This document shows positions 454 through 14,719 of a stretch of 21,499 bases of DNA, in pieces. Made by a program: the position numbers and the translations under genes. The stretch comes from a virus: positions 1 to 21,499 of IMG/VR virus record IMGVR_UViG_3300023115_000122; one strand, written 5' to 3'. The notes beneath the pieces were generated by a model, which saw only the letters and a list, made by a program, of their open reading frames with translations, had not been told where the DNA came from and searched no databases. The number at the start of each line of letters is the position of its first letter. The first letter of the stretch is position 1.

Positions 454-3036
454 TTGAATTCATTCTACACTTCAGTGAACCGTTATGGCAATTCCATTCT
501 TTATCGTGGATATTCACCTAACGGTTCACCTATTAATCAACGCTATAAATTTAAACCAAAATTTTGGTTACCATCTAAAAATCCAACAGAGATAAAATCC
601 TTTGATGGTACGAATATTGCACCAGTCGAATTTGAAAAAATGAGCGATGCTAAAGAATTTCTTGAGCAATATTCGGAAATGGAAGGTGCAAAAATATATG
701 GCACCCGTAATTATATTCATCAGTTTATTACAGAAAAATTTCCTGATGATATTAAATTTAATCCAAAAAATACAAATGTAGTTAATTTTGATATAGAAGT
801 TGCTTCTGATGATGGTTTCCCTACACCAGAAGCTGCAGCTTATCCTATTATATCAATTGCGCTTAAATCTAGTAAATCTTCCATATATCAAGTATGGGGT
901 TTAGATAATTATGATCCGTCTAAAACTGAAATTAATTTAGATGGTGGACAAATCCAATATCATCAATTTAATTCAGAAGAAGCCATGATGGTTTCGTTTC
1001 TAACATACTGGACTAAAAATTATCCAGATATTATAACTGGCTGGAATACCAGATTTTTTGACATACCGTATCTCGTTAATCGGATCAAGATTATTGGAAC
1101 ACAGGAAGCTGCTAATAAATTATCACCGTGGAAACTTGTTAATGAAAGAAATACCACAATCATGGGTCGACCACAGGTTAACCATGAAATTGTTGGTATT
1201 CAACAAGCCGACTATCTTGAATTATTTAAAAAGTTTGGATACTCATATGGTACTCAAGAATCGTATAGATTAGATCATGTTGCAAATACGGTACTTGGAG
1301 AAAAGAAATTATCTTATGAAGAACATGGTAATCTTTATACTTTATATAAACAAGATCATCAAAAATTTATTGACTATAATATTAGAGATGTACAACTAAT
1401 TGATAAAATGGATGCCAAGATGGGTCTTATTAATCTGGCTATGACTATGGCATATAGGGCTGGAACTAATTTATCTGATACTTTTGGCACGACTTCAATT
1501 TGGGAATCTATCCTTTATCGCAGATTACTTTCTAAAAATATTGTTTCTCCTATTGAACAAATAAAAAGAGTTGCTTATGAAAATAATTCTAATCCCAATG
1601 TTATTGAAGGTGGTTATGTAAAAGATCCTCAAGTAGGAGCACACGATTGGGTAGTATCTTTTGATTTAAATTCTCTGTATCCAAATATTATTGTTCAATC
1701 TAACATATCACCGGAAACTATTATTCGCAATAAAACTTGGAGATTTTTCCCTCAAGGTGTTGATCATTATCTAAACGGAGAAGATAAAATTGATGAAGAA
1801 TTTTCTGTTTGTGCTAGTGGTGTTCCTTTTTCAAGAGAAAAACAGGGTATTATTCCAGAACTTATTGTGGATTATTATTCAGAAAGAACACAAATAAAGA
1901 AGAAAATGTTAGATGCAAAATCTCAGTATGAAAAAACAAAATCTTCATATCTCGAGTCTGAGATTAATCAGCTAGAAAATAATCAGATGGCAATTAAAAT
2001 TTTGCTTAATTCTCTTTATGGTGCTCTTGCTAATAAACACTTTAAATATTTTGATAATGCTCTTGCTGAAAGCGTAACTTTAACTGGTCAGCTTTCGATC
2101 AAGTGGGCGGAAAGAGCAATAAATGAAGAAATGAATAAAATCTTAAAAACAGAAAATACCGATTATGTTATAGCAATTGATACTGATTCTGTTTATATTA
2201 ATTTTGGTCCTCTTATTGAAAAATTAAATCCTAAAGATCCCGTAAAAGCCATTGATAAATTATGTAAAGACCACTTTGAAAAAATTATTGCTATGGCATA
2301 TGATAAACTATTTTACAGACTTAATGGTTATACTCCAAGAATGGAAATGGGTAGAGAAGTTATTGCAGATCGTGGAATATGGACTGCTAAAAAACGCTAT
2401 ATACTTAACGTACATAATAACGAAGGAGTACAATACGCAGAACCTAAACTAAAAATGATGGGTATAGAAGCAATTAAATCTTCAACACCTCAAGTTGTAA
2501 GAGATAAATTCAGAGAAATATTTAAGATTATTATTAGTAGCACAGAAACGGAAACACGTAATTATATTAATAATTTTAAATCTGAATTTAAATCTTTACC
2601 TCCAGAAGCGGTCGCTTTTCCTAGAGGTGTTTCAGATATTAATAAATTTTCACATAATAAAAATATTTATTGTAATTCTGCCCATTCTAAAAAATGGACA
2701 GAAGGTTCTAAACAAATAGATGTAAAAACAACACCTATTCATGTTCGTGGTGCTCTTTTATATAACTATCATGTAAAAGATAAAGCTTTAGATAAAAAGT
2801 ATATTATGATACAAAACGGAGAAAAAATTAAATTTACTTATATGAAACTTCCTAATCCTATTCGTGAAAATGTTATTTCTTTTCCAGATTATTTACCTGA
2901 AGAATTAAATTTACATAAATATGTGGACTATGATATGCAATTTGAAAAAACATTTATCGAACCTCTTAACCCTATACTTGAAGCTGTAGGGTGGTCGGTA
3001 AAAGATGTTCAAACTTTGGAGGACTTTTTTGGATGA
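454..3036 (+). CDS. 43: Family B DNA polymerase, T4 gp43 type
   Basis: Replicative DNA polymerase with 3'-5' proofreading; 860 residues against about 900 for T4 gp43. Exonuclease motifs: Exo I FDIE near 112-115, Exo II NTRFFD 198-203, Exo III YNIRD 308-312. Polymerase motifs: A DLNSLYP 404-410, B KILLNSLYG 515-523, C DTDS 576-579, and KKRY 646-649. The C-terminus TLEDFFG resembles the T4 polymerase tail that binds the gp45 sliding clamp. The start is TTG at 454, eight bases after GGAGG (441-445); no closer ATG fits. All catalytic acids are present, so it should be active. Its own promoter lies at 401-429. The next gene overlaps the stop as ATGA. The family assignment is very secure. Confidence 0.98.
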   Translation: MNSFYTSVNRYGNSILYRGYSPNGSPINQRYKFKPKFWLPSKNPTEIKSFDGTNIAPVEFEKMSDAKEFLEQYSEMEGAKIYGTRNYIHQFITEKFPDDIKFNPKNTNVVNFDIEVASDDGFPTPEAAAYPIISIALKSSKSSIYQVWGLDNYDPSKTEINLDGGQIQYHQFNSEEAMMVSFLTYWTKNYPDIITGWNTRFFDIPYLVNRIKIIGTQEAANKLSPWKLVNERNTTIMGRPQVNHEIVGIQQADYLELFKKFGYSYGTQESYRLDHVANTVLGEKKLSYEEHGNLYTLYKQDHQKFIDYNIRDVQLIDKMDAKMGLINLAMTMAYRAGTNLSDTFGTTSIWESILYRRLLSKNIVSPIEQIKRVAYENNSNPNVIEGGYVKDPQVGAHDWVVSFDLNSLYPNIIVQSNISPETIIRNKTWRFFPQGVDHYLNGEDKIDEEFSVCASGVPFSREKQGIIPELIVDYYSERTQIKKKMLDAKSQYEKTKSSYLESEINQLENNQMAIKILLNSLYGALANKHFKYFDNALAESVTLTGQLSIKWAERAINEEMNKILKTENTDYVIAIDTDSVYINFGPLIEKLNPKDPVKAIDKLCKDHFEKIIAMAYDKLFYRLNGYTPRMEMGREVIADRGIWTAKKRYILNVHNNEGVQYAEPKLKMMGIEAIKSSTPQVVRDKFREIFKIIISSTETETRNYINNFKSEFKSLPPEAVAFPRGVSDINKFSHNKNIYCNSAHSKKWTEGSKQIDVKTTPIHVRGALLYNYHVKDKALDKKYIMIQNGEKIKFTYMKLPNPIRENVISFPDYLPEELNLHKYVDYDMQFEKTFIEPLNPILEAVGWSVKDVQTLEDFFG

Positions 3037-3764
3037 TTAATTATGTTTTTGATGTGGATGGAACTCTTACACCCAGTAGAATGAAAATGGATAAAGAGTT
3101 TCAAAAATTCTTTTTAGAATTTATAGAAAAAAACAACGTCTATCTTGTTACGGGTTCAGATTATATAAAAACGGTCGAACAGGTTGGTAAAGAGATATGT
3201 GAAAAAGTTATTAAATGCTATAACTGTTGCGGCAATAGTATTTGGCAGAATGGAGAAGAAATTTATAAGTCTGATTGGAAACTTTCAGAAGAAATTGTGG
3301 ATTGGCTAAAAAAAGAATTAAAGAATAGTAAATTTAGTATAAGGACTGGAAATCATATAGAACAGAGACCAGGCTTGGTAAATTTTAGTATTCTTGGTAG
3401 AAATGCTTCTTTTGAAGAAAGATTCATATATACACAATGGGACGATCAAATAGATGAAAGAATAACAATTGCCAAAAAATTCAATCAGAGGTTTTCCTAC
3501 TATAAAGCACAAGTTGCAGGAGAAACCGGAATTGATATTACTCAAATAGGAAATGATAAAAGTCAAGTTGCAAATCATATAGATGGTCCTATTGTATTTT
3601 TTGGTGATAAAATGAAAGCCGGTGGCAATGATTATCCTTTAGCATTAGAAGTTAAAATGAGACCAGACTCTTGGAATCATGAAGTAAAAGACTGGAAAGA
3701 AACATATAAAATATTAACTAATTTATCATATAAAGGTTTACAAAAAGTCGAATATAATGTATAA
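3033..3764 (+). CDS. HAD-superfamily phosphatase, eukaryotic phosphomannomutase-like
   Basis: A 243-residue HAD-fold protein. HAD motif I is FDVDGT, with nucleophile D7 and acid/base D9; VTGSD is at 39-43. The signature resembling eukaryotic PMM-type phosphomannomutases is a GNxI segment near 67, RPGLVNFSILGR near 112-123, GETGIDIT..GNDKSQV near 163-178, and GDKMKAGGND at 191-200. PMM enzymes interconvert mannose-6-P and mannose-1-P, so this could feed a sugar-nucleotide pathway; a plain sugar phosphatase is the alternative. I chose ATG 3033, overlapping the polymerase stop as ATGA, because motif I then sits at the usual N-terminal position. The downstream cupin and cytidylyltransferase-like genes support a sugar context. 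Confidence 0.85.
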   Translation: MINYVFDVDGTLTPSRMKMDKEFQKFFLEFIEKNNVYLVTGSDYIKTVEQVGKEICEKVIKCYNCCGNSIWQNGEEIYKSDWKLSEEIVDWLKKELKNSKFSIRTGNHIEQRPGLVNFSILGRNASFEERFIYTQWDDQIDERITIAKKFNQRFSYYKAQVAGETGIDITQIGNDKSQVANHIDGPIVFFGDKMKAGGNDYPLALEVKMRPDSWNHEVKDWKETYKILTNLSYKGLQKVEYNV

Positions 3765-3765
3765 T
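3737..3765 (+). promoter_or_regulatory. Sigma70-like promoter for the cupin gene
   Basis: TTTACA at 3737-3742 and TATAAT at 3760-3765 are separated by 17 bases, overlapping the last codons of the HAD gene. The predicted transcription start is near 3772, 22 bases before the cupin ATG. A second TATAAT at 3753-3758 is too close to the -35 box to be the main -10. Confidence 0.7.
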
Positions 3766-3793
3766 ACTATTAATATTATGAAAGATAAAAACA

Positions 3794-4153
3794 ATGAGTA
3801 AAGCAGGAAAAGTGTGGGGTGTAACAGAACTTATTGAAGCGAATGGTTCTTTAGAGTTTCATCGTATTCAAATGAATAAAGGAGGTGTTTGTTCTAAACA
3901 TCTTCATGAGTTTAAATGGAATGGGTTCTATGTCGAAAAAGGTGTAATGTTGGTTCGTGTCTGGCAGAAGGATTATGATCTTGTGGACGAAACTATTTTA
4001 TATGAAGGAGATTATACAAAAGTCAAACCAGGTCTTTATCATCAGTTTGAATGCCTAGAGTCCGGTGTTGCTTACGAACTCTATTGGGCTGAGTTTAATC
4101 ATAACGATATTGTAAGAGAAACTGTAGGGTATAATGAAAAAAATAAAAAGTAA
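3794..4153 (+). CDS. Cupin-fold protein
   Basis: A 119-residue single-domain cupin. Cupin motif 1 is visible as GGVCSKHLHEFKWNGFYVEKG-like spacing near residues 30-50, with H36 and H38 as candidate metal ligands; motif 2 is KPGLYHQF near 78-85, with H83. Cupins of this size include sugar epimerases/isomerases and small-molecule binding proteins. Lying between a phosphomannomutase-like gene and a nucleotidyltransferase-like gene, a sugar-phosphate isomerase or sugar-binding role is reasonable, but this is inference. It starts at ATG 3794 behind its own promoter; the upstream Shine-Dalgarno match (GAAAGATAAA) is weak. The following gene begins inside its 3' end in another frame. Confidence 0.8.
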   Translation: MSKAGKVWGVTELIEANGSLEFHRIQMNKGGVCSKHLHEFKWNGFYVEKGVMLVRVWQKDYDLVDETILYEGDYTKVKPGLYHQFECLESGVAYELYWAEFNHNDIVRETVGYNEKNKK

Positions 4154-4313
4154 TAGTTGGACTTTAGAAGTACAAGAAAATGGAAAAACTAAGGAACTAT
4201 TTATTGAATTTCCTCCTGAAGCTCTTAGTCAAGTAGGCTGGGATGAAGGAGATACTTTACTTTGGGAAGAATTAACTGATGGTGTTTGGAGTATAACAAA
4301 GAAAGATGACTAA
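4134..4313 (+). CDS. Small conserved-type phage protein (AbrB-like pattern possible)
   Basis: A 59-residue frame beginning inside the cupin gene (20-base overlap) and ending inside the next gene through ATGACTAA. The sequence contains LSQVGWDEGDTLLWEEL followed by DGVWSITKK. This 'GW..GD.L.W....DG.W.L.K' pattern resembles small phage proteins with a swapped-hairpin AbrB/MazE-like look. No catalytic residues are apparent. Overlap on both sides implies translational coupling to the cupin and cytidylyltransferase-like genes. A DNA-binding or antitoxin-like role is only a guess from the pattern. Confidence 0.65.
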   Translation: MKKIKSNSWTLEVQENGKTKELFIEFPPEALSQVGWDEGDTLLWEELTDGVWSITKKDD

Positions 4314-4728
4314 AATGAAAATCGGTTTAACGGCTAGTACATTTGATTTACTACACGCTGGTCATATAATGATGTTAAGAGAAGCCAAATCAAAATGTGA
4401 CTGGCTTATAGCAGCACTACAAGTAGATCCTTCATTAGATAGAAAAGAAAAAAATTCTCCCATACAAACTATAGTTGAAAGACAAGCTCAACTTGAAGCA
4501 GTAAAGTATGTAGATGAAGTCATTATTTATTGTACTGAAAATGATCTTTTAGATATTATTAATATGTACCCAATTGATATAAGAATACTTGGTGAAGAAT
4601 ATAGACAAAAAGATTTTACAGGTAAGGACGAATGCCGTAATCGTGGAATTGAACTATACTTTAATAAAAGAGATCATAGATTTAGCTCAAGCGGATTAAG
4701 ATCAAGAGTTTGCGAAAATCATAAATAA
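4306..4728 (+). CDS. Cytidylyltransferase-like nucleotidyltransferase (HIGH superfamily)
   Basis: A 140-residue nucleotidyltransferase with TFDLLHAGH at 12-20, the HxGH catalytic signature, and RFSSSGLRSR at 125-134, which corresponds to the second nucleotide-binding motif of glycerol-3-phosphate and related cytidylyltransferases. PIQTIVER near 52-59 matches the conserved central segment. Such enzymes couple CTP (or ATP) to an alcohol or sugar phosphate, producing a CDP- or ADP-activated compound. The exact substrate cannot be read from sequence; glycerol-phosphate, ethanolamine-phosphate and heptose-phosphate types are all possible. Start ATG 4306 overlaps the upstream stop; ATG 4315 is an alternative that loses three residues. 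Confidence 0.85.
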   Translation: MTKMKIGLTASTFDLLHAGHIMMLREAKSKCDWLIAALQVDPSLDRKEKNSPIQTIVERQAQLEAVKYVDEVIIYCTENDLLDIINMYPIDIRILGEEYRQKDFTGKDECRNRGIELYFNKRDHRFSSSGLRSRVCENHK

Positions 4729-4731
4729 TAC

Positions 4732-4760
4732 TTTACATATCAGTAAAAATAGGATATAAT
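4732..4760 (+). promoter_or_regulatory. Sigma70-like promoter, apparently giving a leaderless mRNA
   Basis: TTTACA at 4732-4737 and TATAAT at 4755-4760 are separated by 17 bases. The expected +1, seven bases after the -10 box, is 4767, exactly the A of the next gene's ATG. No Shine-Dalgarno sequence exists between the promoter and the start codon. Confidence 0.7.
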
Positions 4761-4766
4761 ATAAAA

Positions 4767-5060
4767 ATGAACTATGTAGAAAAAATTATTCAGTGGCATC
4801 ATGATAGAAATCTTATTGAAGGTTCTACAGATAAAGACCAATATATGAAACTTATTCAAGAAATGGGTGAGCTATCGGACAGTATCTGTAAAAATAAAGA
4901 CATTAGAGACGATTGTGGTGATATTATGGTTGTTCTAATTAATATTATGGAAAGAAACAATATAAGTTTTGAAGAATGTCTTGAAGTAGCCTATAATGAT
5001 ATTAAAGACCGTAAAGGTAGAATGGTGGATGGTGTGTTTATAAAGGAAGGTGATAATTAA
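4767..5060 (+). CDS. MazG-like nucleotide pyrophosphohydrolase
   Basis: A 97-residue all-alpha protein of the MazG/dUTPase-like NTP pyrophosphohydrolase type. The metal-binding motif is E32-M-G-E35 (QEMGEL) followed by DDCGD at 48-52, giving the ExxE...(E/D)xxD arrangement with Asp in place of the usual Glu. MVVLINIM continues the second metal helix. Such enzymes cleave (d)NTPs to monophosphates and, in marine phages, have been linked to nucleotide recycling or alarmone control. The gene appears to be transcribed from the promoter at 4732-4760 as a leaderless message. Its TAA stop overlaps the next ATG (TAATG), so the following glycosyltransferase is probably coupled. Confidence 0.85.
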   Translation: MNYVEKIIQWHHDRNLIEGSTDKDQYMKLIQEMGELSDSICKNKDIRDDCGDIMVVLINIMERNNISFEECLEVAYNDIKDRKGRMVDGVFIKEGDN

Positions 5061-5995
5061 TGCAACCAAAATACCCAATCTATATAATTTCTAAGGGTAG
5101 AGCGGACTCACGTCTTACTTCAAAAACTCTTGAAGAAATGAGAGTACCATACAGAATTGTTATTGAAGATAGTGAATATGATGATTATGCTAAAGGTATA
5201 TCACCCGAAAAAATTATAACTCTGCCTACAGATTTTAGAGAAAATCCAAAGTATGCAATTCCAGATAACAAAGGCAGAATTGGCGGTTCTATTCCTGCAC
5301 GTAACTTTGTTTGGGAACATTCTATTAATGAAGGTCATAAGCGGCATTGGATTATGGATGATAATATTAAACATTTCTATAGATTACATAAGAATAGAAA
5401 AACTAAAGTAACCTCTGGAACTATTATTAGATTATGTGAAGATTTTACCGACCGATATACTAATGTAAAAATGTCTGGTATGAATTATCAATATTTTGCC
5501 CCAGCTTCTCAGAAAAAAAAGCCATATACACTTAATACCAGAATTTATTCTTGTATTCTATTATCTAATGATTTGAAACATCGCTGGCGTGGTAAATACA
5601 ATGAAGATACAGTTCTAAGTCTTGATATTCTAAAAGATGATTGGTGTACAATTTTATTTAATGCATTCTTATGTGGTAAAATTACAACTCTTGTTATGGG
5701 CGGTGGTAATACTGATAATGTGTATGTTGACGGAGACAATCGTTTACAGTTTGCACAAGCACTTGTAGAACAACATCCAGATCTGGTTAAAGTTGTACAT
5801 AGATATAATAGATGGCATCACCATGTAGATTATAGTCCGTTTAAAAAGAATAAGCTTATCTATCGTGATGACTATGTTATTAAAGGTGGTGTAAACGAAC
5901 ACGGTATGAAATTACATAAATTAACTATGGAACAATATAAAAAAGCAACTACAGAATTTGGAAACGCGGAGAACCCCTACTATGAGCAAACCTAA
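5060..5995 (+). CDS. TET-associated-type glycosyltransferase (TAGT-like)
   Basis: A 311-residue GT-A-like protein with the pattern of the TET-associated glycosyltransferase family: IYIISKGRA at 7-15 near the N-terminus, SIPARN with the RN pair at 81-82, and WIMDDNI at 97-103 in place of a DxD metal site. Viral members of this family attach sugars to oxidised (hydroxymethyl) pyrimidines in DNA, although many phage relatives are uncharacterised. The protein is soluble, with a basic middle section (LHKNRKTK). No base hydroxylase or dCMP hydroxymethylase is seen in this window, so the acceptor is unproven. It overlaps the MazG-like gene by one base and the next small gene by 14. Confidence 0.75.
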   Translation: MQPKYPIYIISKGRADSRLTSKTLEEMRVPYRIVIEDSEYDDYAKGISPEKIITLPTDFRENPKYAIPDNKGRIGGSIPARNFVWEHSINEGHKRHWIMDDNIKHFYRLHKNRKTKVTSGTIIRLCEDFTDRYTNVKMSGMNYQYFAPASQKKKPYTLNTRIYSCILLSNDLKHRWRGKYNEDTVLSLDILKDDWCTILFNAFLCGKITTLVMGGGNTDNVYVDGDNRLQFAQALVEQHPDLVKVVHRYNRWHHHVDYSPFKKNKLIYRDDYVIKGGVNEHGMKLHKLTMEQYKKATTEFGNAENPYYEQT

Positions 5996-6263
5996 AGGAG
6001 CTAACCTATTTGTATTAGACGGACAAGAAGATGATCTTGATCCTATGGGTTGGGATGATATGCCAGAATTTGAACAAGAGAATAGAGAGGATTATGCTGC
6101 TCTTGTTATTAGATTTAGGACAGAGGAAGATTTAAAAGAATTTGCACAAAAGATTGGACAACCTAATCTTACTAAAAAATCACGTGGGACATTTTATCCT
6201 GCGGTAGAATTTAATGAGGCAAATCTTTTGCGTTGGATGGATGAAGAACAAATACCGAGCTGA
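5982..6263 (+). CDS. Small acidic phage protein adjoining the TAGT-like gene
   Basis: A 93-residue protein starting at ATG 5982. The upstream in-frame ATG at 5958 is less likely because it lengthens the overlap with the preceding gene and the GGAG at 5968-5971 suits 5982 better. An acidic N-terminal half (DGQEDDLDPMGWDD) is followed by ALVIRFRTEEDLKEFAQKIG and KSRGTFYPAVEF. The 'FR..ED...FA..IGQ..T.K....FYP' pattern recurs in small phage proteins near ParB-like or DNA-modification genes, which may tie it to the glycosyltransferase. I do not recognise a defined function. Confidence 0.7.
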   Translation: MSKPKGANLFVLDGQEDDLDPMGWDDMPEFEQENREDYAALVIRFRTEEDLKEFAQKIGQPNLTKKSRGTFYPAVEFNEANLLRWMDEEQIPS

Positions 6264-6265
6264 TT

Positions 6266-7204
6266 ATGCAAGTTTCTGCAACATTCTTTAAATCTATTTA
6301 TGATAATAAGACTCATAAGAATATGAGTTTTTCTGATTTTTCACAGTTTGAAAAATTTTTATATAAGTTGTCAGAAAGAAAGTTAAAGGATAAAAAAGAT
6401 GCTCAACTTATATCTCCAGCTTCATATATTGAAGATACAACCAGAGCAAATAAAAATGTGATAGACTGGGCTGGCTGGGCAGCTATGGATGTAGATGATC
6501 ACGAGTTTAAAGGGGATTTAAAAAATGAGCTTATTCGTATATATGGTAAGTACTATTTCGTTTGCTATAGTACTGCTAGCAGTCGAGAAAGTTTACCAAA
6601 GTTTCGTCTGGTCTTCCCACTTACAAAAAGAGTTAGATCAGATAATATCAGACATTTTTGGTACGCACTCAACACACAACTTAAGGCTATCGGCGATGCG
6701 CAAACTAAAGATTTATCACGAATGTATTATATCCCTGGTTCGTACTCTGGCGCTTTCAACTTTATTTTTACTAACACTGGTGGTTCTTATATAGATCCAG
6801 AAGAACTGATGAGTGCTCATCCTTATCAGGAAAAGAAAACTGGAACATTCTTAGATAGATTACCAACAGAAATGCAAAAATCCATTATAGAATATCGTAA
6901 GAATAAAATGGAAAATAATAATGTCAATTGGACTAATTATGAAGATTGCCCATTTGTAAATAAGAATCTTATCAGAGATTTTAAAAATATAGCATATGTA
7001 GATAATACCGGAAGATATGCTATGGTTTATAAAATAATGGTTTCTATAGCAAGTAATGCAATTAAGAAACAATATCCTATAAATACGTTTGAAATTGTAG
7101 AACTAATTAAACAACTTGATGCAGATACAGCAAAGAGATATGAAAATAGACCTCTTAATATAGAAGCTGATCGTGCTATAGAATATGCGTATAGAAATAT
7201 TTAA
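6266..7204 (+). CDS. Primase-polymerase (AEP)-like domain protein, putative
   Basis: A 312-residue protein whose N-terminal two thirds resembles archaeo-eukaryotic primase/RepB-like domains. Visible are WAAMDVDD (D75 and D77, candidate metal-binding DhD motif I), CYSTASS at 100-106 (small-residue motif II region), PKFRLVFPL at 111-119, and KDLSRMYYIPG at 148-158 (candidate motif III aspartate D149 followed by the Arg/Pro/Gly segment). The C-terminal part from about 205 is charged and helical. Such a domain would synthesise primers or initiate replication, fitting the nearby polymerase and helicase; no gp61-type primase is in this window. The fold call rests on motif pattern alone. ATG 6266 follows the upstream stop by two bases. 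Confidence 0.5.
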   Translation: MQVSATFFKSIYDNKTHKNMSFSDFSQFEKFLYKLSERKLKDKKDAQLISPASYIEDTTRANKNVIDWAGWAAMDVDDHEFKGDLKNELIRIYGKYYFVCYSTASSRESLPKFRLVFPLTKRVRSDNIRHFWYALNTQLKAIGDAQTKDLSRMYYIPGSYSGAFNFIFTNTGGSYIDPEELMSAHPYQEKKTGTFLDRLPTEMQKSIIEYRKNKMENNNVNWTNYEDCPFVNKNLIRDFKNIAYVDNTGRYAMVYKIMVSIASNAIKKQYPINTFEIVELIKQLDADTAKRYENRPLNIEADRAIEYAYRNI

Positions 7205-7281
7205 AAAAAATGTATTTTAGGGGTTTACAAGTGATGATTTTTAGTATATGTTGTAAGAGTAAATAGAATCGGAGACTTCTT
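7203..7281 (+). promoter_or_regulatory. Promoter/leader module A (GGGG-TTTACA class)
   Basis: An A-tract and TGTATTTTAGGGG element leads into TTTACA at 7224-7229, with TATGTT at 7247-7252 after 17 bases; predicted +1 is about 7259. The short leader carries AGAATCGG at 7265-7272 and a GGAGA site before the ATG at 7282. The upstream A-tract through TTTACAA is nearly identical to that at about 17277-17305, and the core and leader recur at 7541-7606. Confidence 0.75.
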
Positions 7282-7542
7282 ATGGCTTACTGGACTCACA
7301 CAAATTCACCAATCGGCATTTTTACTGAAAAAGAGGTTGGCAATTGTTTTGAATACTCTATTAATGATGATCCGATTACTTCATTTAATGAAGATTTTCC
7401 TCATAAAATCTGGGTCTGCAATGGATACCGTTACGGAACGGTAAAGAAAACCGTTGTAGTAATCTGTATAGATGAAGACGAATACGGTCTCCCTGTGACA
7501 CAAACGTGGCACATTAAAAATAATCGTATATATGCAAATTAG
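7282..7542 (+). CDS. Small unknown protein from promoter module A
   Basis: An 86-residue soluble protein, beta-rich by appearance, with no recognised domain. It contains three cysteines (CFEYS, WVCNG, VICID) and a hydrophobic strand KKTVVVICIDEDE near 53-65, ending TWHIKNNRIYAN. It is monocistronic-looking: promoter module A lies in front and module B starts at its own stop codon. Because this promoter class drives only three small genes in the window, an early host-directed role is possible, but this is inference. Start ATG 7282 follows GGAGACTTCTT. Confidence 0.75.
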   Translation: MAYWTHTNSPIGIFTEKEVGNCFEYSINDDPITSFNEDFPHKIWVCNGYRYGTVKKTVVVICIDEDEYGLPVTQTWHIKNNRIYAN

Positions 7543-7606
7543 GGGTTTACAAACTCCTAAAAATATAGTATGTTGATTATATAAAGAGAATCGGAAAGGA
7601 ACTAAA
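7541..7606 (+). promoter_or_regulatory. Promoter/leader module B (GGGG-TTTACA class)
   Basis: TTAGGGG precedes TTTACA at 7546-7551, and TATGTT lies at 7569-7574 after 17 bases, the same -10 as module A. Predicted +1 is about 7581. The leader segment at 7579-7594 (ATATAAAGAGAATCGG) is identical to that at 17332-17347. An AAGGA site follows before ATG 7607. Confidence 0.75.
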
Positions 7607-8116
7607 ATGTCTAACGTTGCTACAAATCTTAAAAAAGTTGGAACTTATCTCGGATATTTTACAATTCAAAAACATACAACAAACGTAAATAATAACAAGC
7701 CTTCTCGTACTTATGAAAAGCTTGTATTTACAAAAGCCGATGGTATGGAAACTCGTGACTTTAAAGCCATGGGTGATATTGTATATGGTATGTATGTTAA
7801 CGGCGATCTTGTTAAGATTGGCAAAGCAGGTTCAACAAACGGTTGGGCTGGACGTATTAGTACCTATGGTGTTGATCCAAAAGGTGAAGCAACTAATCGT
7901 AAAATCATTACACATCTAAAAGAAGATTTTACATATGAAACTCGTGTAGAAGTATATGGCATTTCAGTTCCTCGTGTTCACTCAGAATATTTTTGCCCAG
8001 TAACACGTGAAACGGTTTCCATTGAACTTCCGCAAAACCATCAGGTAGAAACTCATTTAACTGCTGAAGCAGAAGCCGAGGGTGTTGATCTTATGTTCTG
8101 TACGCAAAAAGTTTAA
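7607..8116 (+). CDS. GIY-YIG-fold nuclease-like protein, putative
   Basis: A 169-residue protein. The segment DIVYGMYVNGDLVKIGKA at 57-74 has the spacing of GIY-YIG/T5orf172-type cores (Tyr, then a KIGK turn), followed by GRISTYG with R83. A candidate catalytic glutamate lies in QVETHL (E148). The family cuts DNA in restriction, repair and homing enzymes, and small phage members could attack host DNA. The call is by pattern; the canonical GIY triplet is modified. It is driven by promoter module B, and the next gene follows after four bases. Confidence 0.5.
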   Translation: MSNVATNLKKVGTYLGYFTIQKHTTNVNNNKPSRTYEKLVFTKADGMETRDFKAMGDIVYGMYVNGDLVKIGKAGSTNGWAGRISTYGVDPKGEATNRKIITHLKEDFTYETRVEVYGISVPRVHSEYFCPVTRETVSIELPQNHQVETHLTAEAEAEGVDLMFCTQKV

Positions 8117-8120
8117 TATA

Positions 8121-9302
8121 ATGAAAATATTCATAATTCCATATACATTCTATACTTATTTTTCTTTTAAAGAAAGAGTAAGTGGCGTTGATGAGAGTAT
8201 GTTGAAACAGATAGAAGTTTTAAGAGAAAGAGGTCATGACGTAAAAGCATATACTATTTTTGGTAATCTACATGAATATTTAAATGATGTTTATTATTAT
8301 GATGATAAAGTTCCTGAAATAGGAATAAAATCATATTTAAAAAGTACTAAAAATAGAAAAAAAATTGTAACAGATATTATAATTAAAATAAAAAAATTTA
8401 AACCTGATATAATTTTATCAAATGCATATTTTCAACGCGGTTTTTATAATGAATTACAAAAAATAAATATACCTATAATTTATATGTGTCACGCTGCACC
8501 CGGATTTTTATCAGATCTTATGTCTGCAAATAAATTATCAAGTTTCAGTGAAAGACATTCTATTTGCGCAATGTCGGAATATCATGCAAAAACTATAAAA
8601 CAATTTTATGGCAGAAAAAGAAAAAACTGGGACTTTGAAGGTAAAATAAGTGCAGACTCAATAGTATTTTCTTCATATAGTAATAAAGAAAATGTATTGG
8701 GTTCTGACGGTATTGTTAGACATGTCTCTGCTGCAAATAAAGATAAACAGACTTTTTTGATACATGACTTTTTAAGCAAAACAGATTTTAAAACCGAAGT
8801 ATATACTACTTTAAATCATATGACTAAAGATAATGAAAAATTAAATTCTTATGTTGAAAAAGCATTTAAAAATTTTAATACTTCAGATAGATTAATCAAT
8901 CTTGATATTGAACATAAAATCATTATGGAAAATATAGCAAAATCGGCGTGTTGTTTTGTAGGATTAGCATATTATGATAGTTTTACAATTACCTCACTTG
9001 AAGCGCTTTCTCGTGGTATACCAATTATTGTAAAAGGGATAAAAAACTCACATCCTGCAAAAGAAATGGTAGAACCAGAATATCAAAAATATGTTCATAT
9101 ATACGAAAATAAAAAAGATTTTATTGATAAGGTAAAAGAGTTTTCAAATGTTACAATAGAAGAAAGACATCAAATTGCCAATTCTTGTTATAAAATTACT
9201 TCAAAAAATATGTATGGAAATAAATTAGAAAAGGCATTAAATAGTGCCGTACTTAAATTTAATAATAAAAATAGTTTACACTTAGAAAATTTTATGATAT
9301 AA
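8121..9302 (+). CDS. GT-B glycosyltransferase (GT4-like)
   Basis: A 393-residue two-domain glycosyltransferase. The N-terminal Rossmann-type half begins MKIFIIPY, with SGVDESMLKQIEVLRERGHDV at 21-41 typical of acceptor domains. The C-terminal donor domain carries GLAYYDSFTITSLEALSRG near 281-299, the E-containing signature of GT4 enzymes, followed by IPIIVKG. It would move a sugar from an activated nucleotide donor. The epimerase and UDP-glucose dehydrogenase downstream suggest a uronic-acid donor. The acceptor could be DNA (T4 AGT is a GT-B enzyme of similar length), virion or host glycan. Start ATG 8121 is chosen over 8082, which lies inside the preceding gene. The gene looks even richer in A and T than its neighbours, hinting at separate acquisition. 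Confidence 0.85.
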   Translation: MKIFIIPYTFYTYFSFKERVSGVDESMLKQIEVLRERGHDVKAYTIFGNLHEYLNDVYYYDDKVPEIGIKSYLKSTKNRKKIVTDIIIKIKKFKPDIILSNAYFQRGFYNELQKINIPIIYMCHAAPGFLSDLMSANKLSSFSERHSICAMSEYHAKTIKQFYGRKRKNWDFEGKISADSIVFSSYSNKENVLGSDGIVRHVSAANKDKQTFLIHDFLSKTDFKTEVYTTLNHMTKDNEKLNSYVEKAFKNFNTSDRLINLDIEHKIIMENIAKSACCFVGLAYYDSFTITSLEALSRGIPIIVKGIKNSHPAKEMVEPEYQKYVHIYENKKDFIDKVKEFSNVTIEERHQIANSCYKITSKNMYGNKLEKALNSAVLKFNNKNSLHLENFMI

Positions 9303-9303
9303 T
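9275..9303 (+). promoter_or_regulatory. Sigma70-like promoter for the epimerase gene
   Basis: TTTACA at 9275-9280 and TATAAT at 9298-9303 are separated by 17 bases, overlapping the end of the glycosyltransferase gene. Predicted +1 is about 9310. The 19 bases from 9298 to 9316 are identical to 10327-10345 in the next promoter. Confidence 0.75.
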
Positions 9304-9325
9304 ATAAGTGTAGAAGGAGAAAAAT

Positions 9326-10282
9326 ATGTCACATATTACAGTAACTGGCGGCGCTGGTTTTATCGGTTATCATCTTATTCAAAAATTAGTAGACGAAGGT
9401 CATACGGTTTCGGCATTTGATAACTTTAATGATTATTATGATGTTTCTTTAAAAGAAGATAGAGCAAATAATTTAAAAAATCTTGGTGTTGAAGTAACAC
9501 GTCTTGATCTAAAAGAAAAAGCACATTTAAAATTTTTTCTTGCTTCTACAAAACCTGATGTTGTTATTCACTTAGCTGCATACGCAGGTGTTCGTCATTC
9601 ATTAGAAAATCCTCAAAAATATATTGATAATAATATCACTGGATCACAAAATTTAATAGAAGCTTGTATAGAAAATAATATTGAAAATGTGGTATATGCA
9701 TCTACATCATGTACCATGGCTGGAAATCCATTACCATGGAATGAAGATGAAAAAACTGGTTATCAACTAAACCCATACGGTTTTACTAAATCCACCAACG
9801 AATGCCAATTTATTTCAAGTAAAATTCCTAAAACCACCGGTCTTCGTTTCTTTACTGTTTATGGTCCTTGGGGCAGACCTGATATGGCTTTATTTGATTT
9901 TACAAAAAATATTATTGCTGGCAATGAAATTGAATTATTTAATTATGGTGATATGATTCGTGACTTCACTTATATAGATGACATTGTAAGTGGTATTATT
10001 ATTGTTGTTAATCAAACATTATCTGAAAATAATGAATTTAATGAAATATATAATATCGGTTATGGTGAACAAGTAAAATTGGTTGACTTTGTTGATAATA
10101 TTGAAAAACAATTAGATCGTAAAGCTAAACGTAAACTTGTACCAAAACATCCGGCAGATACTCAAGCAACTTGGTCTGATACAACTAAACTACAAAAACT
10201 CGGATATAAACCTACTACACCAATTGAAGTTGGTGTAGAAAAATTTGTTTCCTGGTATAAACTATATTATGGAGTAAACTAA
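9326..10282 (+). CDS. NAD-dependent sugar epimerase, UDP-glucuronate 4-epimerase-like
   Basis: A 318-residue extended short-chain dehydrogenase. The NAD site is GGAGFIG at 8-14; catalytic residues are Y151 and K155 (YGFTK) with S126-T127-S128. DNFNDYYDVSLK, AAYAGVRHSLENP near 85-96, VYGPWGRPDM near 178-187 and NYGDMIRDFTYIDD near 206-219 match UDP-glucuronate 4-epimerases, which convert UDP-GlcA to UDP-GalA. UDP-glucose 4-epimerase is the less likely alternative. Together with the dehydrogenase at 10415 it gives UDP-Glc to UDP-GlcA to UDP-GalA. An AGAAGGAG ribosome site at 9312-9319 sits before ATG 9326, behind a dedicated promoter. Confidence 0.93.
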   Translation: MSHITVTGGAGFIGYHLIQKLVDEGHTVSAFDNFNDYYDVSLKEDRANNLKNLGVEVTRLDLKEKAHLKFFLASTKPDVVIHLAAYAGVRHSLENPQKYIDNNITGSQNLIEACIENNIENVVYASTSCTMAGNPLPWNEDEKTGYQLNPYGFTKSTNECQFISSKIPKTTGLRFFTVYGPWGRPDMALFDFTKNIIAGNEIELFNYGDMIRDFTYIDDIVSGIIIVVNQTLSENNEFNEIYNIGYGEQVKLVDFVDNIEKQLDRKAKRKLVPKHPADTQATWSDTTKLQKLGYKPTTPIEVGVEKFVSWYKLYYGVN

Positions 10283-10284
10283 TA

Positions 10285-10425
10285 ATGGATAGCGTAGAAA
10301 AACTTTACAAAAATGTTGCACTATATTATAATATAAGTGTAGAAGAATTATTGGATCGACTCACTAAAAACGGAGAACCTCTAATTCATAATTATTATAA
10401 GGAAGTGTATCCAAATGGGTTCTAA
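10285..10425 (+). CDS. Mini-protein between the epimerase and dehydrogenase genes
   Basis: A 46-codon frame starting two bases after the epimerase stop and overlapping the next ATG (ATGGGTTCTAA). The product MDSVEKLYKNVALYYNISVEELLDRL... is helical and acidic, with a possible helix-turn pattern, ending in NYYKEVYPNGF. Its first half also contains a perfect promoter (10304-10332), so the frame might be partly fortuitous. The tight junctions on both sides argue that it is translated. No family recognised. Confidence 0.5.
   Translation: MDSVEKLYKNVALYYNISVEELLDRLTKNGEPLIHNYYKEVYPNGF
10304..10332 (+). promoter_or_regulatory. Sigma70-like promoter upstream of the UDP-glucose dehydrogenase
   Basis: TTTACA at 10304-10309 and TATAAT at 10327-10332 are separated by 17 bases and lie inside the mini-gene at 10285-10425. 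Predicted +1 is about 10339. Its -10 region and start site, 10327-10345, are identical to the epimerase promoter, suggesting duplication. Confidence 0.65.
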
Positions 10426-11254
10426 ACTAAGAATTGCTATTGTCGGTCATGGTTTTGTAGGAAAAGCCATTGATCATGGGTTTAATGACTATAACTGCGA
10501 TAAAATAATTATTGATCCAAAATATGGAAATAGTATTGATAATATTAAATCACTAGTAACAGATGTAGCTTTTGTTGCTGTTCCTACACCTATGGGAAAG
10601 AATGGAGAAATTGATTCATCTATTGTTGTTGAAACAGTAAAGAAACTTAAACAAAGAAGAACTGGTATTATTGTAATCAAATCTACAGTAACTCCTGATA
10701 TTATTAAGAGTCTTACTAATGGTTCTGGTTCAAGTACAAGAGTAGTTTACAATCCAGAATTTTTAACAGAGATAAATGCTAATTCTGATTTTATAAATCC
10801 TGATATGCATGTATTTGGAGGTCACAAAGAAACCACTCAAAGATTGGAAGAAATATATAGAGAGTATAGTTTATGTAAACCATGTCCAGTTTTTCATATG
10901 TCCGCTACGGAAGCAAGCTTTGTAAAATATGGACTTAATTGTTTTCTTGCTACAAAAGTTTTATGGTTTAATCAGTTCTATGATGTAATAGAAAAGTTTG
11001 GTGGTAATTTCGGTCACATTGTAAATGCTATTGGAACAGATCCTAGAATAGGAACATCCCACACCAGAGCACCAGGGTTTGATGGCAAAAGAGGGTTTGG
11101 AGGAGCTTGTTTCCCAAAAGATACAGCAGCATTTAATAATTTTTCAAATAAAGAATTTACGGTATTAAATGAAGCAATTAAAGCAAACAATGAATATAGA
11201 AAAGAATACGAAAAAGATTCAAGAGAATTGGAACAAAACGTAAGCTATGCTTGA
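10415..11254 (+). CDS. UDP-glucose 6-dehydrogenase-like protein, short form
   Basis: A 279-residue member of the UDP-glucose/GDP-mannose dehydrogenase family. NAD-binding GHGFVG is at 11-16, VPTPMGKNGEID near 56-67, a central helix KYGLNCFLATKV near 171-182, and the catalytic cysteine C232 in GFGGACFPKD at 227-236. Typical enzymes have 390-450 residues with a C-terminal UDP-binding domain; here that domain is essentially missing after about residue 265. It may be a phage-minimised enzyme or have altered specificity. The expected reaction is UDP-glucose to UDP-glucuronate with two NAD+, supplying the adjacent epimerase. Start ATG 10415 follows AAGGAAG at 10400-10406. Confidence 0.88.
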   Translation: MGSKLRIAIVGHGFVGKAIDHGFNDYNCDKIIIDPKYGNSIDNIKSLVTDVAFVAVPTPMGKNGEIDSSIVVETVKKLKQRRTGIIVIKSTVTPDIIKSLTNGSGSSTRVVYNPEFLTEINANSDFINPDMHVFGGHKETTQRLEEIYREYSLCKPCPVFHMSATEASFVKYGLNCFLATKVLWFNQFYDVIEKFGGNFGHIVNAIGTDPRIGTSHTRAPGFDGKRGFGGACFPKDTAAFNNFSNKEFTVLNEAIKANNEYRKEYEKDSRELEQNVSYA

Positions 11255-11441: not shown

Positions 11442-12488
11442 ATGTCAATTATGGACAAACTCAAAAAGAACTCAAAGCTATCCCACACTTCAGTTCTTTC
11501 TGAGTCTAAATTTTTTACCGAAAAAGATATGGTTCCAACAGAAGTCCCTATGATTAATGTTGCATTATCTGGTTCAGTAGATGGTGGGTTAGCACCAGGT
11601 CTTACAGTTCTTGCAGGACCTTCAAAACACTTTAAGACATCATTTGCATTACTTATGGCTGCAGCTTATATGAAACATTATTCAGATGCAGTTATGCTAT
11701 TTTATGATTCAGAATTTGGTTCACCTCAAACTTATTTTCAACAATTTGGAATTGATACATCTCGCGTATTACACACGCCTATTACAAATGTTGAAGAATT
11801 AAAGTTCGATATTATTGGTCAACTTGAAGAACTTGATCGTGATGATAAAGTTGTTGTAGTTATTGATTCAATTGGAAACTTAGCATCTAAGAAAGAAATG
11901 GAAGATGCACTGAATGAAAAATCAGTTGCTGATATGTCAAGAGCAAAAGCACTTAAGGGTCTTTTCCGTATGACAACACCATATCTTGCCATGAAGAATA
12001 TTCCGCTTCTTGCTGTTAACCATACTTATAAAGAAATTGGTCTGTTTCCGCGTGATATTGTTGGTGGTGGTACAGGTATTTACTACTCAGCAGATAATAT
12101 CTGGATTCTCGGTAGGCAACAAGATAAGAAAGGTACAGAAATTCAAGGTTATCACTTTGTAATCAATGTGGAGAAATCACGATATGTTAAAGAAAAGTCT
12201 AAAATTCCTATCACTGTTAGTTGGGACGGTGGTGTACGTAATTTTTCTGGTTTACTCGATTGTGCTCTTGCCGGTGGTTATGTTACTAAACCTTCTAACG
12301 GTTGGTACGCTGCAGTTGATAGAGAAACTGGAGAAATCGGCGCCAAAGTCAGACATGAACAAACCTTAGAAAAAAAGTTTTGGGATCCTATTTTTGCGGA
12401 AACAGATTTCAAAGATTTTTTAAAGAAACAATATTCTATTGGTCATCAATCTTTGGTTGAGATGGATGATATTGTGGCAGAAGAATAA
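11442..12488 (+). CDS. uvsX: UvsX, RecA-like recombinase
   Basis: A 348-residue T4 UvsX-type strand-exchange protein. Walker A is GPSKHFKTS at 59-67 (T4 has GPSKSFKSN), a catalytic glutamate lies in DSEFG (E91), and Walker B is VVVVID at 137-142. NHTYKEIG near 193-200 and VGGGTGIYYSADNIW near 206-220 cover the loop-2/core region. It coats single-stranded DNA and drives recombination-dependent replication and repair. Start ATG 11442 lies six bases after AAGGAG; ATG 11451 is possible. The C-terminal EEMDD-like acidic tail fits the family. Its stop overlaps the next ATG (TAATG). Confidence 0.97.
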   Translation: MSIMDKLKKNSKLSHTSVLSESKFFTEKDMVPTEVPMINVALSGSVDGGLAPGLTVLAGPSKHFKTSFALLMAAAYMKHYSDAVMLFYDSEFGSPQTYFQQFGIDTSRVLHTPITNVEELKFDIIGQLEELDRDDKVVVVIDSIGNLASKKEMEDALNEKSVADMSRAKALKGLFRMTTPYLAMKNIPLLAVNHTYKEIGLFPRDIVGGGTGIYYSADNIWILGRQQDKKGTEIQGYHFVINVEKSRYVKEKSKIPITVSWDGGVRNFSGLLDCALAGGYVTKPSNGWYAAVDRETGEIGAKVRHEQTLEKKFWDPIFAETDFKDFLKKQYSIGHQSLVEMDDIVAEE

Positions 12489-12803: not shown

Positions 12804-14180
12804 TTGAATACAAATATAGAACAAGTCGTTCTTAAAAATATCCTTACTAATGAAAAATACATGAGAAAGGTTCTTCCTTTCATTAAACCAGATTACTTTG
12901 AAGGCGTTTATAAAATGCTATTTAAACAAGCAGGAATGTTTGTTGCAAAGTATAATAAACTTCCTACAGCAGAAGCATTTAAAATAGAAATCGATCAATC
13001 AGATAATTTTAATGATGAACAATATAGACATGCTATTGAAATTATACCTAGTCTATTTGAAATGGAAAAATCCGACGAGACTTGGTTAAATGATACTACA
13101 GAAAAATGGTGTCAAGATCGTGCTTTATATAATGCTGTTATGGAATCAATCTCCATTATAGATGGAAAACATCAGAGTCTTACAAAAAATGCTTTACCGG
13201 ATATTCTCACGAAAGCGCTCGGAGTCTCATTCGACGCCAACATCGGTCACGACTATATTGAAAACTTTGAAGAACGATTCGAGTTCTACCACCGTGACGA
13301 GGAAAGATTACCTTTTGATCTTGACTACTTTAACAAAATTACAAAAGGAGGTATTCCAAACAAAAGTCTTAATGTCTGTCTTGCTGGTACTGGCGTTGGT
13401 AAATCTTTATTTATGTGCCACTGTGCTGCTGCTAATCTAAATCGGGGTAATAATGTTTTATATCTTACTATGGAAATGGCAGAAGAAAGAATAGCAGAAA
13501 GAATAGATGCTAATTTACTTGATATACCTATTGATCAGTTAGAACATCTTAGTAAAGAAATGTTTGCTGAAAGAGTAAGAGGGCTTTCATCTAAAACTAA
13601 TGGTAAGTTAATCATAAAAGAATATCCAACCGGATCTGCTCATTCTGGTCATTTTCGTGCCCTTTTAAACGAATTAAAACTAAAGAAATCGTTCGAGCCT
13701 GATATTATATACATTGATTATCTTAATATTTGTGCATCAAGTAGAATGAAAGGAATGGGAGGTGCCATTAATTCATACAACTACATTAAGGCAATTGCTG
13801 AAGAATTACGAGGTCTTGCGGTGGAGTTTGACTTACCGATCGTTACTGCAACGCAGACGACTAGGTCTGGTTATAGTAACTCGGATATTGGGCTTGAAGA
13901 TACGTCCGAGTCTTTTGGATTACCCGCAACCGCGGACCTCATGTTCGCTCTTATCTCGACAGAAGAACTTGAAGGAATGGGACAGCTTGCGGTAAAACAA
14001 TTAAAGAATAGATATAACGATCCAACATATAAGAAAAGGTTTGTAATCGGGGTTGATAGATCAAAGATGAGACTATTTGATGTTCACGAAGGAGAACAAA
14101 CTCTAATAGATGATACTCCAGTATTTGATAAAACAAAAACTGGTATAAATGTAAAGAAATTTGAAGATTTTAAATTATAG
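12804..14180 (+). CDS. 41: DnaB-type replicative helicase, T4 gp41
   Basis: A 458-residue hexameric helicase of the gp41/DnaB family. The N-terminal helical domain is about 1-130. RecA-type motor motifs are Walker A AGTGVGKS at 194-201, TMEMAEERIAERI with E224 in the catalytic-glutamate position, Walker B IIYIDYL at 301-307, and a DLPIVTATQTTRSG motif H3 near 340-355. It unwinds DNA 5'-3' ahead of the polymerase. Translation starts at TTG 12804, four bases after the upstream stop, with a weak GAGG. T4 gp41 is 475 residues, so this is full length. Two other replication-linked genes here (polymerase, thyX) also use TTG. Confidence 0.96.
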   Translation: MNTNIEQVVLKNILTNEKYMRKVLPFIKPDYFEGVYKMLFKQAGMFVAKYNKLPTAEAFKIEIDQSDNFNDEQYRHAIEIIPSLFEMEKSDETWLNDTTEKWCQDRALYNAVMESISIIDGKHQSLTKNALPDILTKALGVSFDANIGHDYIENFEERFEFYHRDEERLPFDLDYFNKITKGGIPNKSLNVCLAGTGVGKSLFMCHCAAANLNRGNNVLYLTMEMAEERIAERIDANLLDIPIDQLEHLSKEMFAERVRGLSSKTNGKLIIKEYPTGSAHSGHFRALLNELKLKKSFEPDIIYIDYLNICASSRMKGMGGAINSYNYIKAIAEELRGLAVEFDLPIVTATQTTRSGYSNSDIGLEDTSESFGLPATADLMFALISTEELEGMGQLAVKQLKNRYNDPTYKKRFVIGVDRSKMRLFDVHEGEQTLIDDTPVFDKTKTGINVKKFEDFKL

Positions 14181-14474: not shown

Positions 14475-14719
14475 ACTGGGAAGATTTTGAAGAAAAGGCC
14501 TTTTCGGAAGTTTTTAATCACTATATTAATTTAACAAATGATTTAGTTGAAGAAGATCAAGATCCCTTACTGATTGCAGCTATACTTGTCACTACGGGTC
14601 TTAGCATGTATAGAACATTGTTAAATGAATACGATTATGATAAAATGGTAGAACAGATTAGTCTTTTTAAAGATGATATTACTAGTTTTGAACAAGCAAA
14701 GAAAGGCCAGTTACATTGA
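14471..14719 (+). CDS. Small acidic phage protein upstream of thyX
   Basis: An 82-residue protein, MNWEDFEEKAFSEVFNHY..., largely helical, with one hydrophobic segment DPLLIAAILVTTGLSMYRTLL near 32-52 that could be a buried helix rather than a membrane span. It overlaps the preceding gene as ATGA and the thyX TTG start as TTGA, so it is translationally coupled on both sides. No domain is recognised. Confidence 0.75.
   Translation: MNWEDFEEKAFSEVFNHYINLTNDLVEEDQDPLLIAAILVTTGLSMYRTLLNEYDYDKMVEQISLFKDDITSFEQAKKGQLH

Follow-up and report, generated by a model that had tools for sequence, protein, structure and literature searches.

A marine T4-like phage gene island combining a TAGT glycosyltransferase with uronic-sugar enzymes, with a probable role in DNA hypermodification

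The window studied here (the whole 21,499-nucleotide stretch of DNA that was analysed, a genome fragment of a marine T4-like phage) contains a gene island at positions 3033-11254, bordered on the left by a gp43-type DNA polymerase gene (454..3036; PHROG 262, E=3e-298) and on the right by UvsX (11442..12488; PHROG 97, 2e-89), all genes discussed being on the plus strand. UvsX is followed by a gp41-type replicative helicase (12804..14180; PHROG 19, 2e-121) and by the flavin-dependent thymidylate synthase ThyX (14716..15405; PHROG 85, 5e-73), in which the motif RHRSFSFQEFS can be read directly. The island begins with a HAD protein of the eukaryotic-type phosphomannomutase (PMM) family (3033..3764; PF03332, E=1.5e-23), a predicted sugar-phosphate mutase with directly readable motifs DVDGTLTPSR and FFGDK..GGND. 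Next come a small, putatively sugar-isomerase-like cupin with an HxH..H metal motif (3794..4153; PF07883, 1.7e-5, under the Pfam cut-off; WbuC cupin, 5e-4) and a nucleotidyltransferase similar to RfaE domain II and TagD (4306..4728; PF01467, 1.2e-11; TIGR02199, 4e-20, under its cut-off), which may serve in sugar activation and which is found again together with the UDP-glucose dehydrogenase (UGD) in relatives. A MazG-like pyrophosphohydrolase (4767..5060; PHROG 1992, 4e-40) precedes the TAGT glycosyltransferase and the small p101 protein described below, after which lie a primase-like N-terminal protein (6266..7204; PHROG 9765, 1.4e-53) and a possible GIY-YIG-like nuclease (7607..8116; PHROG 1111 endonuclease, only E=0.004). 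The remainder of the island encodes a GT-B glycosyltransferase, an SDR epimerase and a short UGD. The genes named in a first-pass annotation of this DNA are all present where it had placed them, with matches to the corresponding profiles (PF20691, PF03332, PF01467, PF03721/PF00984).

The protein encoded at 5060..5995 can be assigned to the TAGT family from its sequence and its predicted GT-A fold, and would transfer a sugar to DNA. It matches PF20691 over the full domain (2.2e-40; 139 bits against a cut-off of 27.5) and PHROG 842, annotated as "beta-glucosyl-HMC-alpha-glucosyltransferase" (E=1.6e-43), and the acidic residues DD100-101 and D183 are invariant in the alignment. Its AF2 model (pLDDT 87) has GT-A matches and resembles the beta-glucosyl-HMC-alpha-glucosyltransferase of phage PKO111 (E=3e-11). 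The PDB fold matches, headed by heparosan synthase, were dropped as a guide to the donor sugar, being too weak at TM about 0.4. We termed the clade of this protein TAGT1; a local profile gave no match between TAGT1 and the T6 TAGT. The adjacent p101 (5982..6263), characterized by the pattern W..MPxF...TxKT(K)S..(W/F)YP, is the detached N-terminal domain of TAGT, as fusions in isolates reveal: it is fused N-terminally to TAGT in Aeromonas, Vibrio, Tenacibaculum and Pectobacterium phages, it adjoins TAGT1 in 17 of 20 clusters, and in siphophage loci from IMG/VR it is found C-terminal to ParB_N. Single-sequence searches of phage records for p101 apart from TAGT returned TAGT fusions only.

The SDR epimerase (9326..10282; PF01370, 1e-48) is an extended SDR with the YxxxK motif, predicted to be of the UDP-glucuronate 4-epimerase type; its best PDB match is 5u4q (2e-80), followed by 6zl6 (3e-41), which we take to be a UDP-GlcA epimerase. 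The short UGD (10415..11254; PF03721, 3.7e-17; PF00984, 3.8e-16) retains the NAD and central domains and the catalytic Cys motif, with GFGGACFPKD (active-site motif GGACFPKD) aligned to 4a7p. The C-terminal UDP-binding domain PF03720 is missing from the window protein and from the relatives G001-G005, and a search for a separate gene encoding it found none; other TAGT1 islands have a full-length UGD in the slot occupied here by the short one. The GT-B glycosyltransferase (8121..9302; 393 aa) is GT4-like, with weak matches to PF13439 (2.5e-6) and PF00534 (6.9e-6). The first-pass annotation had noted a length similar to that of T4 AGT; the sequence matches only GT4-type models and neither the AGT nor the BGT family (GT63/GT72), so the likeness is one of length alone. 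A relationship to AGT was thus ruled out by sequence; the structure model (pLDDT 51) is too poor to judge the fold. In a 177-kb relative, a PF20691 protein, i.e. a second TAGT, occupies the GT-B slot.

Analysis of related contigs reveals that many of them, although divergent, carry the gene set in this slot, and that TAGT, UGD and SDR are linked outside it in at least four contexts (L019, L021/L022, L144, L180), a recurrence that exceeds chance. UGD and SDR lie near TAGT1 in 14 of 20 clusters, four of these 14 outside the pol-uvsX slot. Some islands contain UGD without TAGT, with a gp42-like enzyme or a C5-methylase alongside the same UGD. Among isolates with TAGT, UGD is found only in Kuja, where it does not adjoin the TAGT gene.

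A set of sister islands has the order polymerase, gp42-like dCMP hydroxymethylase, dCMP deaminase, TAGT, C5-cytosine methylase, SDR, UGD, uvsX. In L146 and L188-L209 the genes from gp42 to UGD (TAGT: PF20691, 2.7e-19; C5-methylase: PF00145) form a single run, and in L193 those for TAGT, C5-methylase, SDR and UGD overlap by 1-4 bases. The gp42-like proteins share 44-57% identity with T6 gp42, the dCMP-specifying Asp of gp42-type enzymes (PMC8670742) being conserved in 54 of 55. The profile of the sister TAGTs matches the T6 TAGT at 2e-21. Because gp42 and dCMP deaminase are encoded together with them, TAGT and the uronic-sugar enzymes are directly linked in these islands to hydroxymethylcytosine synthesis. 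The open-access literature searched contained no previous description of an island combining gp42, TAGT and UGD.

The first-pass annotation had found no hydroxylase or hydroxymethylase in the window, and this observation holds and extends to larger relatives. A gp42-type PF00303 domain is absent from the window, from G001-G005 and from the other TAGT1 contigs, while the same search does detect gp42-like genes among the sisters. In G003 and G004 (177 and 151 kb), two near-complete relatives with TAGT1, there were no matches to either PF00303 or PF00383 (gp42 and dCMP deaminase), and no other hydroxylase common to the two was found; the enzyme that was hoped for elsewhere in the genome is not found there. 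In G003, the closest near-complete relative, no recognizable hydroxylase family appeared among the ORFs scanned with Pfam. The search with PF12851 (TET/JBP) gave no match in 15 records, its positive control likewise remaining without a match. Among isolates with TAGT, gp42 was rejected as a candidate, the readable thymidylate-synthase homologs lacking the Asp (that of henriette, with an unreadable motif, was left out). A replication-module gene of the 177-kb relative that is specific to TAGT1 genomes encodes a PEPCK homolog.

In T6, alpha-GT and TAGT act in turn. The T6 gene order is gp43, imm.1, imm, gp42, TAGT (ggt), uvsX, 40, gp41; thus T6 has a glycosyltransferase gene of the same PF20691 family in the gp43-uvsX slot, and shares gp42 with the sister islands. 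T6 differs in using host UDP-glucose, whereas the phages studied here encode UGD, SDR and sugar-activation genes; in the window clade, gp42 is missing and p101 is encoded apart from the divergent TAGT1. RB69 and other Mosigvirus members likewise have a sugar-nucleotide module between polymerase and UvsX that feeds DNA glycosyltransferases, in RB69 with UDP-arabinose (PMC6024577, PMC13390438); it comprises, however, an isomerase, an epimerase, a sugar kinase and an NTP-transferase instead of UGD and a UDP-GlcA-epimerase-type enzyme, and a 5-hodCMP synthase of the gp42 family is present in the RB69 group but not in the window clade. A uronic-acid-decorated base, which the first-pass annotation thought would be novel, has a precedent in Bacillus phage SP-15, where a phage UGD is implicated in placing uronic acid on DNA and phosphoglucuronate and glucose are carried on dihydroxypentyluracil (PMC5977210), although that system is uracil-based and phosphate-linked, with an hmdUMP synthase and other transferases. 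With the TET-associated systems of Iyer and Aravind the islands share the TAGT family and, in the sisters, a C5-cytosine methylase adjoining TAGT; the TET/JBP search of the relatives gave no match, nor did its control.

We consider it probable that the island serves DNA hypermodification with its own supply of UDP-GlcA/GalA-type sugars. UGD would convert UDP-glucose to UDP-glucuronate and SDR would epimerize it to UDP-galacturonate, the pool of activated sugars probably being fed or diversified by the PMM-like, cupin and nucleotidyltransferase proteins. TAGT, together with p101, would transfer such a sugar onto phage DNA. There it would be supplemented or extended by the other transferase (GT-B, or the second TAGT in relatives), as in the alpha-GT/TAGT pair of T6. 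The acceptor in the sister islands would be 5-hydroxymethylcytosine made by the gp42-like enzyme; in the window clade, gp42 and dCMP deaminase are gone. Only tentatively do we suggest the more specific possibility that the TAGT1-p101 clade puts a uronic-acid-type sugar on DNA without a thymidylate-synthase-fold hydroxymethylase, dCMP deaminase or TET, by an undescribed base-hydroxylating or direct base-glycosylating step, while the gp42 sisters make uronyl-type hydroxymethylcytosine. A recent study (2026) found a solitary TAGT of unassigned function, without alpha- or beta-GT, in 288 of 753 phage genomes (PMC13216743). For such TAGTs the islands provide a definite gene setting, with UDP-uronic sugars supplied by the phage itself and, in the sisters, with a dCMP hydroxymethylase; the question of the TAGT substrate thereby becomes directly testable. 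If the proposal is true, charged sugars on cytosine are a new base chemistry among abundant marine phages, auxiliary metabolic genes (AMGs) labeled as LPS functions need rereading, and the gp42-less clade points toward an undescribed way of readying a base for glycosylation.

The link to DNA hypermodification put forward in the first-pass annotation is well supported by the slot position shared with T6 and RB69 and by the gp42-TAGT-SDR-UGD linkage in the sisters; the p101 fusions, the recurrent association of TAGT with UGD and SDR, and the gp42-like or C5-methylase genes beside UGD in TAGT-free islands also speak for it. The missing base-preparing enzyme, the existence of UGD islands without TAGT, the near-absence of UGD from TAGT isolates, the LPS-type genes of the islands and the distance of TAGT1 from the T6 TAGT speak against it. 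The main rival is glycosylation of the host surface or virion, in which the GTs decorate virion proteins or, for superinfection exclusion, host LPS with uronic acids or heptose-like sugars, and the location in the replication block reflects early expression only. Genes of the UGD, RfaE-like, PMM-like, cupin and GT4 kinds belong to the classical repertoire of LPS or capsule pathways, a KdsA-like gene is present in one related island (L128), and the TAGT1 genomes yielded no acceptor-making enzyme. Genes of the same names in marine T4-like pelagimyophages (rfaE, UGD, GTs) have been attributed to modification of the host O-chain, and SAR11 hosts seldom carry restriction systems (PMC7029224). We nevertheless find this rival unlikely: the islands differ from the pelagimyophage case in the linkage to gp42, C5-methylase and TAGT, the sister TAGT, SDR and UGD genes even overlapping with the C5-methylase gene; the TAGT family is associated with phage DNA (PMC13216743); siphophages have p101 joined to ParB_N; and the 177-kb relative has its surface-type GT cluster elsewhere, at 83-94 kb, near tail genes. 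A division of labor, with TAGT and p101 modifying DNA with host UDP-glucose and UGD, SDR, PMM and nucleotidyltransferase serving surface glycans made by GTs elsewhere, would fit the occurrence of UGD in the slot without TAGT (in C48C1 and several contigs) and the lack of UGD in the majority of TAGT isolates; it appears very improbable in view of the TAGT-UGD-SDR linkage outside the slot and the overlap of these three genes in TAGT3 islands.

Compatible with DNA hypermodification, but in our opinion rather doubtful, is the variant in which TAGT1 acts on a thymine-derived base and not on cytosine, the pyrimidine being hydroxylated by a host or another phage enzyme (e.g. a 2OG oxygenase, or a side activity of ThyX giving hydroxymethyl-dUMP). 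ThyX looks like an ordinary enzyme and is found in gp42 lineages as well, and PF13640 oxygenase domains are absent from the closest relative, G003. On the other hand, ThyX is present in G001-G005 and G011, PF13640 domains are found in G004 (three) and G005 (one) only, and Kuja, with its two TAGTs, carries a thymidylate-synthase homolog without the Asp.

The window, a 21.5-kb IMG/VR fragment of a T4-like phage whose polymerase is nearest to that of phage C48C1 (53%, filed under Kyanoviridae), with cyanophages next at ~46%, carries an island between gp43 (454-3036, + strand) on the left and uvsX (11442-12488) on the right. The interval, whose genes are all on the + strand, opens with a PMM-family HAD protein, a small cupin, an RfaE-II/TagD-like nucleotidyltransferase and a MazG-like protein, continues with a TAGT-family glycosyltransferase, the 94-residue protein p101, a primase-like protein and two small proteins, and ends with a GT-B enzyme, an SDR epimerase and a short UDP-glucose dehydrogenase (UGD). 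The coordinates and gene identities of the first-pass annotation proved correct; the GT-B enzyme, whose length it compared with that of T4 AGT, is GT4-like rather than AGT-like. As in nearly all related islands, the UGD (10415-11254) keeps the NAD domain, the central domain and the catalytic Cys motif and lacks the usual C-terminal UDP-binding domain, which a search did not find encoded elsewhere in the larger relatives. At 21136-21498 begins a low-complexity secreted-type protein with Thr/Asn/Ser/Asp repeats, where the reverse strand is open too.

The window's TAGT (its clade termed here TAGT1) is encoded in 50 IMG/VR loci, and contigs of 82 kb and 63 kb contain the window genes at 100% identity. 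In the close relative G003 (177 kb, TAGT 91%) the place of GT-B is occupied by a second TAGT (PF20691, 2e-28), so the second transferase is exchangeable; G004 (151 kb, 74%) is more distant. Divergent contigs (TAGT ~58%) retain TAGT, p101, GT-B or the second TAGT, UGD, SDR and the nucleotidyltransferase between gp43 and uvsX; their SDR is shorter and, as in other TAGT1 islands, a full-length UGD (here 394-398 aa) replaces the short form. TAGT, UGD and SDR also cluster outside this interval in four clusters (L019, L021/L022, L144 and L180), and in L144 the neighboring gene is dCMP deaminase. G003 additionally encodes, between gp46 and gp45, a phosphoenolpyruvate carboxykinase homolog (131622-132815, equivalent to L059:11622-12815; PDB match 1ygg, 2e-57), with a homolog in G004, and, apparently at ORF 90856-91734, a protein weakly matching class-I fructose-bisphosphate aldolase; these look like a gluconeogenic push, from which sugar phosphates could come. 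It also has a PnrA-like periplasmic substrate-binding protein (L059:17748-18803; Bmp, 8e-52; homologs in L126 and L138) and a plastocyanin/azurin-type protein.

Searches with UGD also retrieved sister contigs without TAGT1, several of which encode a protein 44-57% identical to the T6 dCMP hydroxymethylase, gp42; the dCMP-selecting Asp (for the Asn177/Asp rule of substrate choice, see PMC8670742) is present in 54 of 55 gp42-like proteins. L146 and 22 further loci, as far as each contig extends, unite gp42-like, dCMP deaminase, TAGT (PF20691, 2.7e-19), C5-cytosine methylase (PF00145), SDR and UGD genes in one island. Neighboring reading frames in the L193 run from TAGT through methylase and SDR to UGD share 1-4 bases, so they are very probably co-translated. 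The gene order in T6 is gp43, gp42, TAGT, uvsX, and its TAGT matches the profile of sister TAGTs (E=2e-21). Sister islands thus link uronic-sugar enzymes and a TAGT with hydroxymethylcytosine synthesis much more strongly than the window does by itself. The L128 island, with gp42, dCMP deaminase, UGD and SDR, also has a KdsA-like DAHP/KDO8P synthase (374-1147; PF00793, 7.5e-48), possibly for a KDO-like sugar meant for DNA. A recurrent trio of putative modification enzymes (~330, ~300 and ~340 aa; the second is weakly PALP-like) adjoins gp42 and dCMP deaminase ahead of uvsX in L128 (2968-5846) and L214-L219. In L153, an island without TAGT, a DruA-like protein (4075-5211; PF14236, 3e-9) adjoins UGD.

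A gp42-like gene is absent from the window's clade: the PF00303 search that detects it in sister contigs found none in the TAGT1 contigs searched, including G003, G004 and G005 (165 kb). With clusters grouped by UGD similarity, gp42 occurs in 0/17 TAGT1 clusters and 13/22 others (Fisher p ~8e-5, descriptive because sampling was query-driven, many contigs are fragmentary and lineages are non-independent). Batched Pfam scans of G003 ORFs revealed no hydroxylase families; G004 and G005 have PF13640 oxygenases and G003 has none. G005, G034 and the L144 record carry a dCMP deaminase, and none was found in G001-G004; ThyX, ordinary in appearance, occurs in both TAGT1 and gp42-bearing phages. Therefore, either an unrecognized enzyme makes the acceptor in the window's clade, or the chemistry of TAGT1 differs.

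Alongside the observed identities, order, recurrence, linkage and absences of these genes, we infer activities, donor, acceptor and DNA as the target. Most likely, UGD would convert UDP-Glc to UDP-GlcA, SDR would epimerize this to UDP-GalA, TAGT with p101 would transfer the sugar to a DNA base, and GT-B or the second TAGT would add a second sugar, by analogy with the T6 disaccharide, built by alpha-GT and then TAGT (PMC13216743, PMC13390438); in sister phages hmC would be the acceptor for the same steps. Counting against this reading are the classical LPS gene types, islands that lack TAGT, isolates that lack UGD, and the interpretation of such genes in pelagimyophages as serving O-chain modification (PMC7029224). 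As for DNA glycosylation, a TAGT (T6) and a sugar-nucleotide module (RB69) in the pol-uvsX interval, and uronic acid on phage DNA (SP-15, PMC5977210), were already known. New is that TAGT, SDR and UGD recur together as an island, one branch of which has gp42 and another of which lacks any recognized hydroxymethylase; the open literature searched contained no earlier report of such a combination.

In TAGT1 isolates (phages of Aeromonas, Vibrio, Tenacibaculum and Pectobacterium) a domain homologous to p101, with the motif W..MPxF ... TxKTKS(I/L)W(F/Y/H)P, forms the TAGT N-terminus, and ParB_N-like proteins encoded next to TAGT and terminase genes in siphophage loci carry it at their C-terminus. 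A partner common to the transferase and a DNA-associated domain suggests a DNA-directing role for p101. In one locus (L045:9741-14450) the run of p101, TAGT and SDR continues with genes for an Amidoligase_2 protein, for a class-II glutamine amidotransferase and for an apparent gamma-glutamylcyclotransferase, ahead of small-terminase-like and terminase genes; this set possibly performs a peptide-type addition onto the sugar or base.
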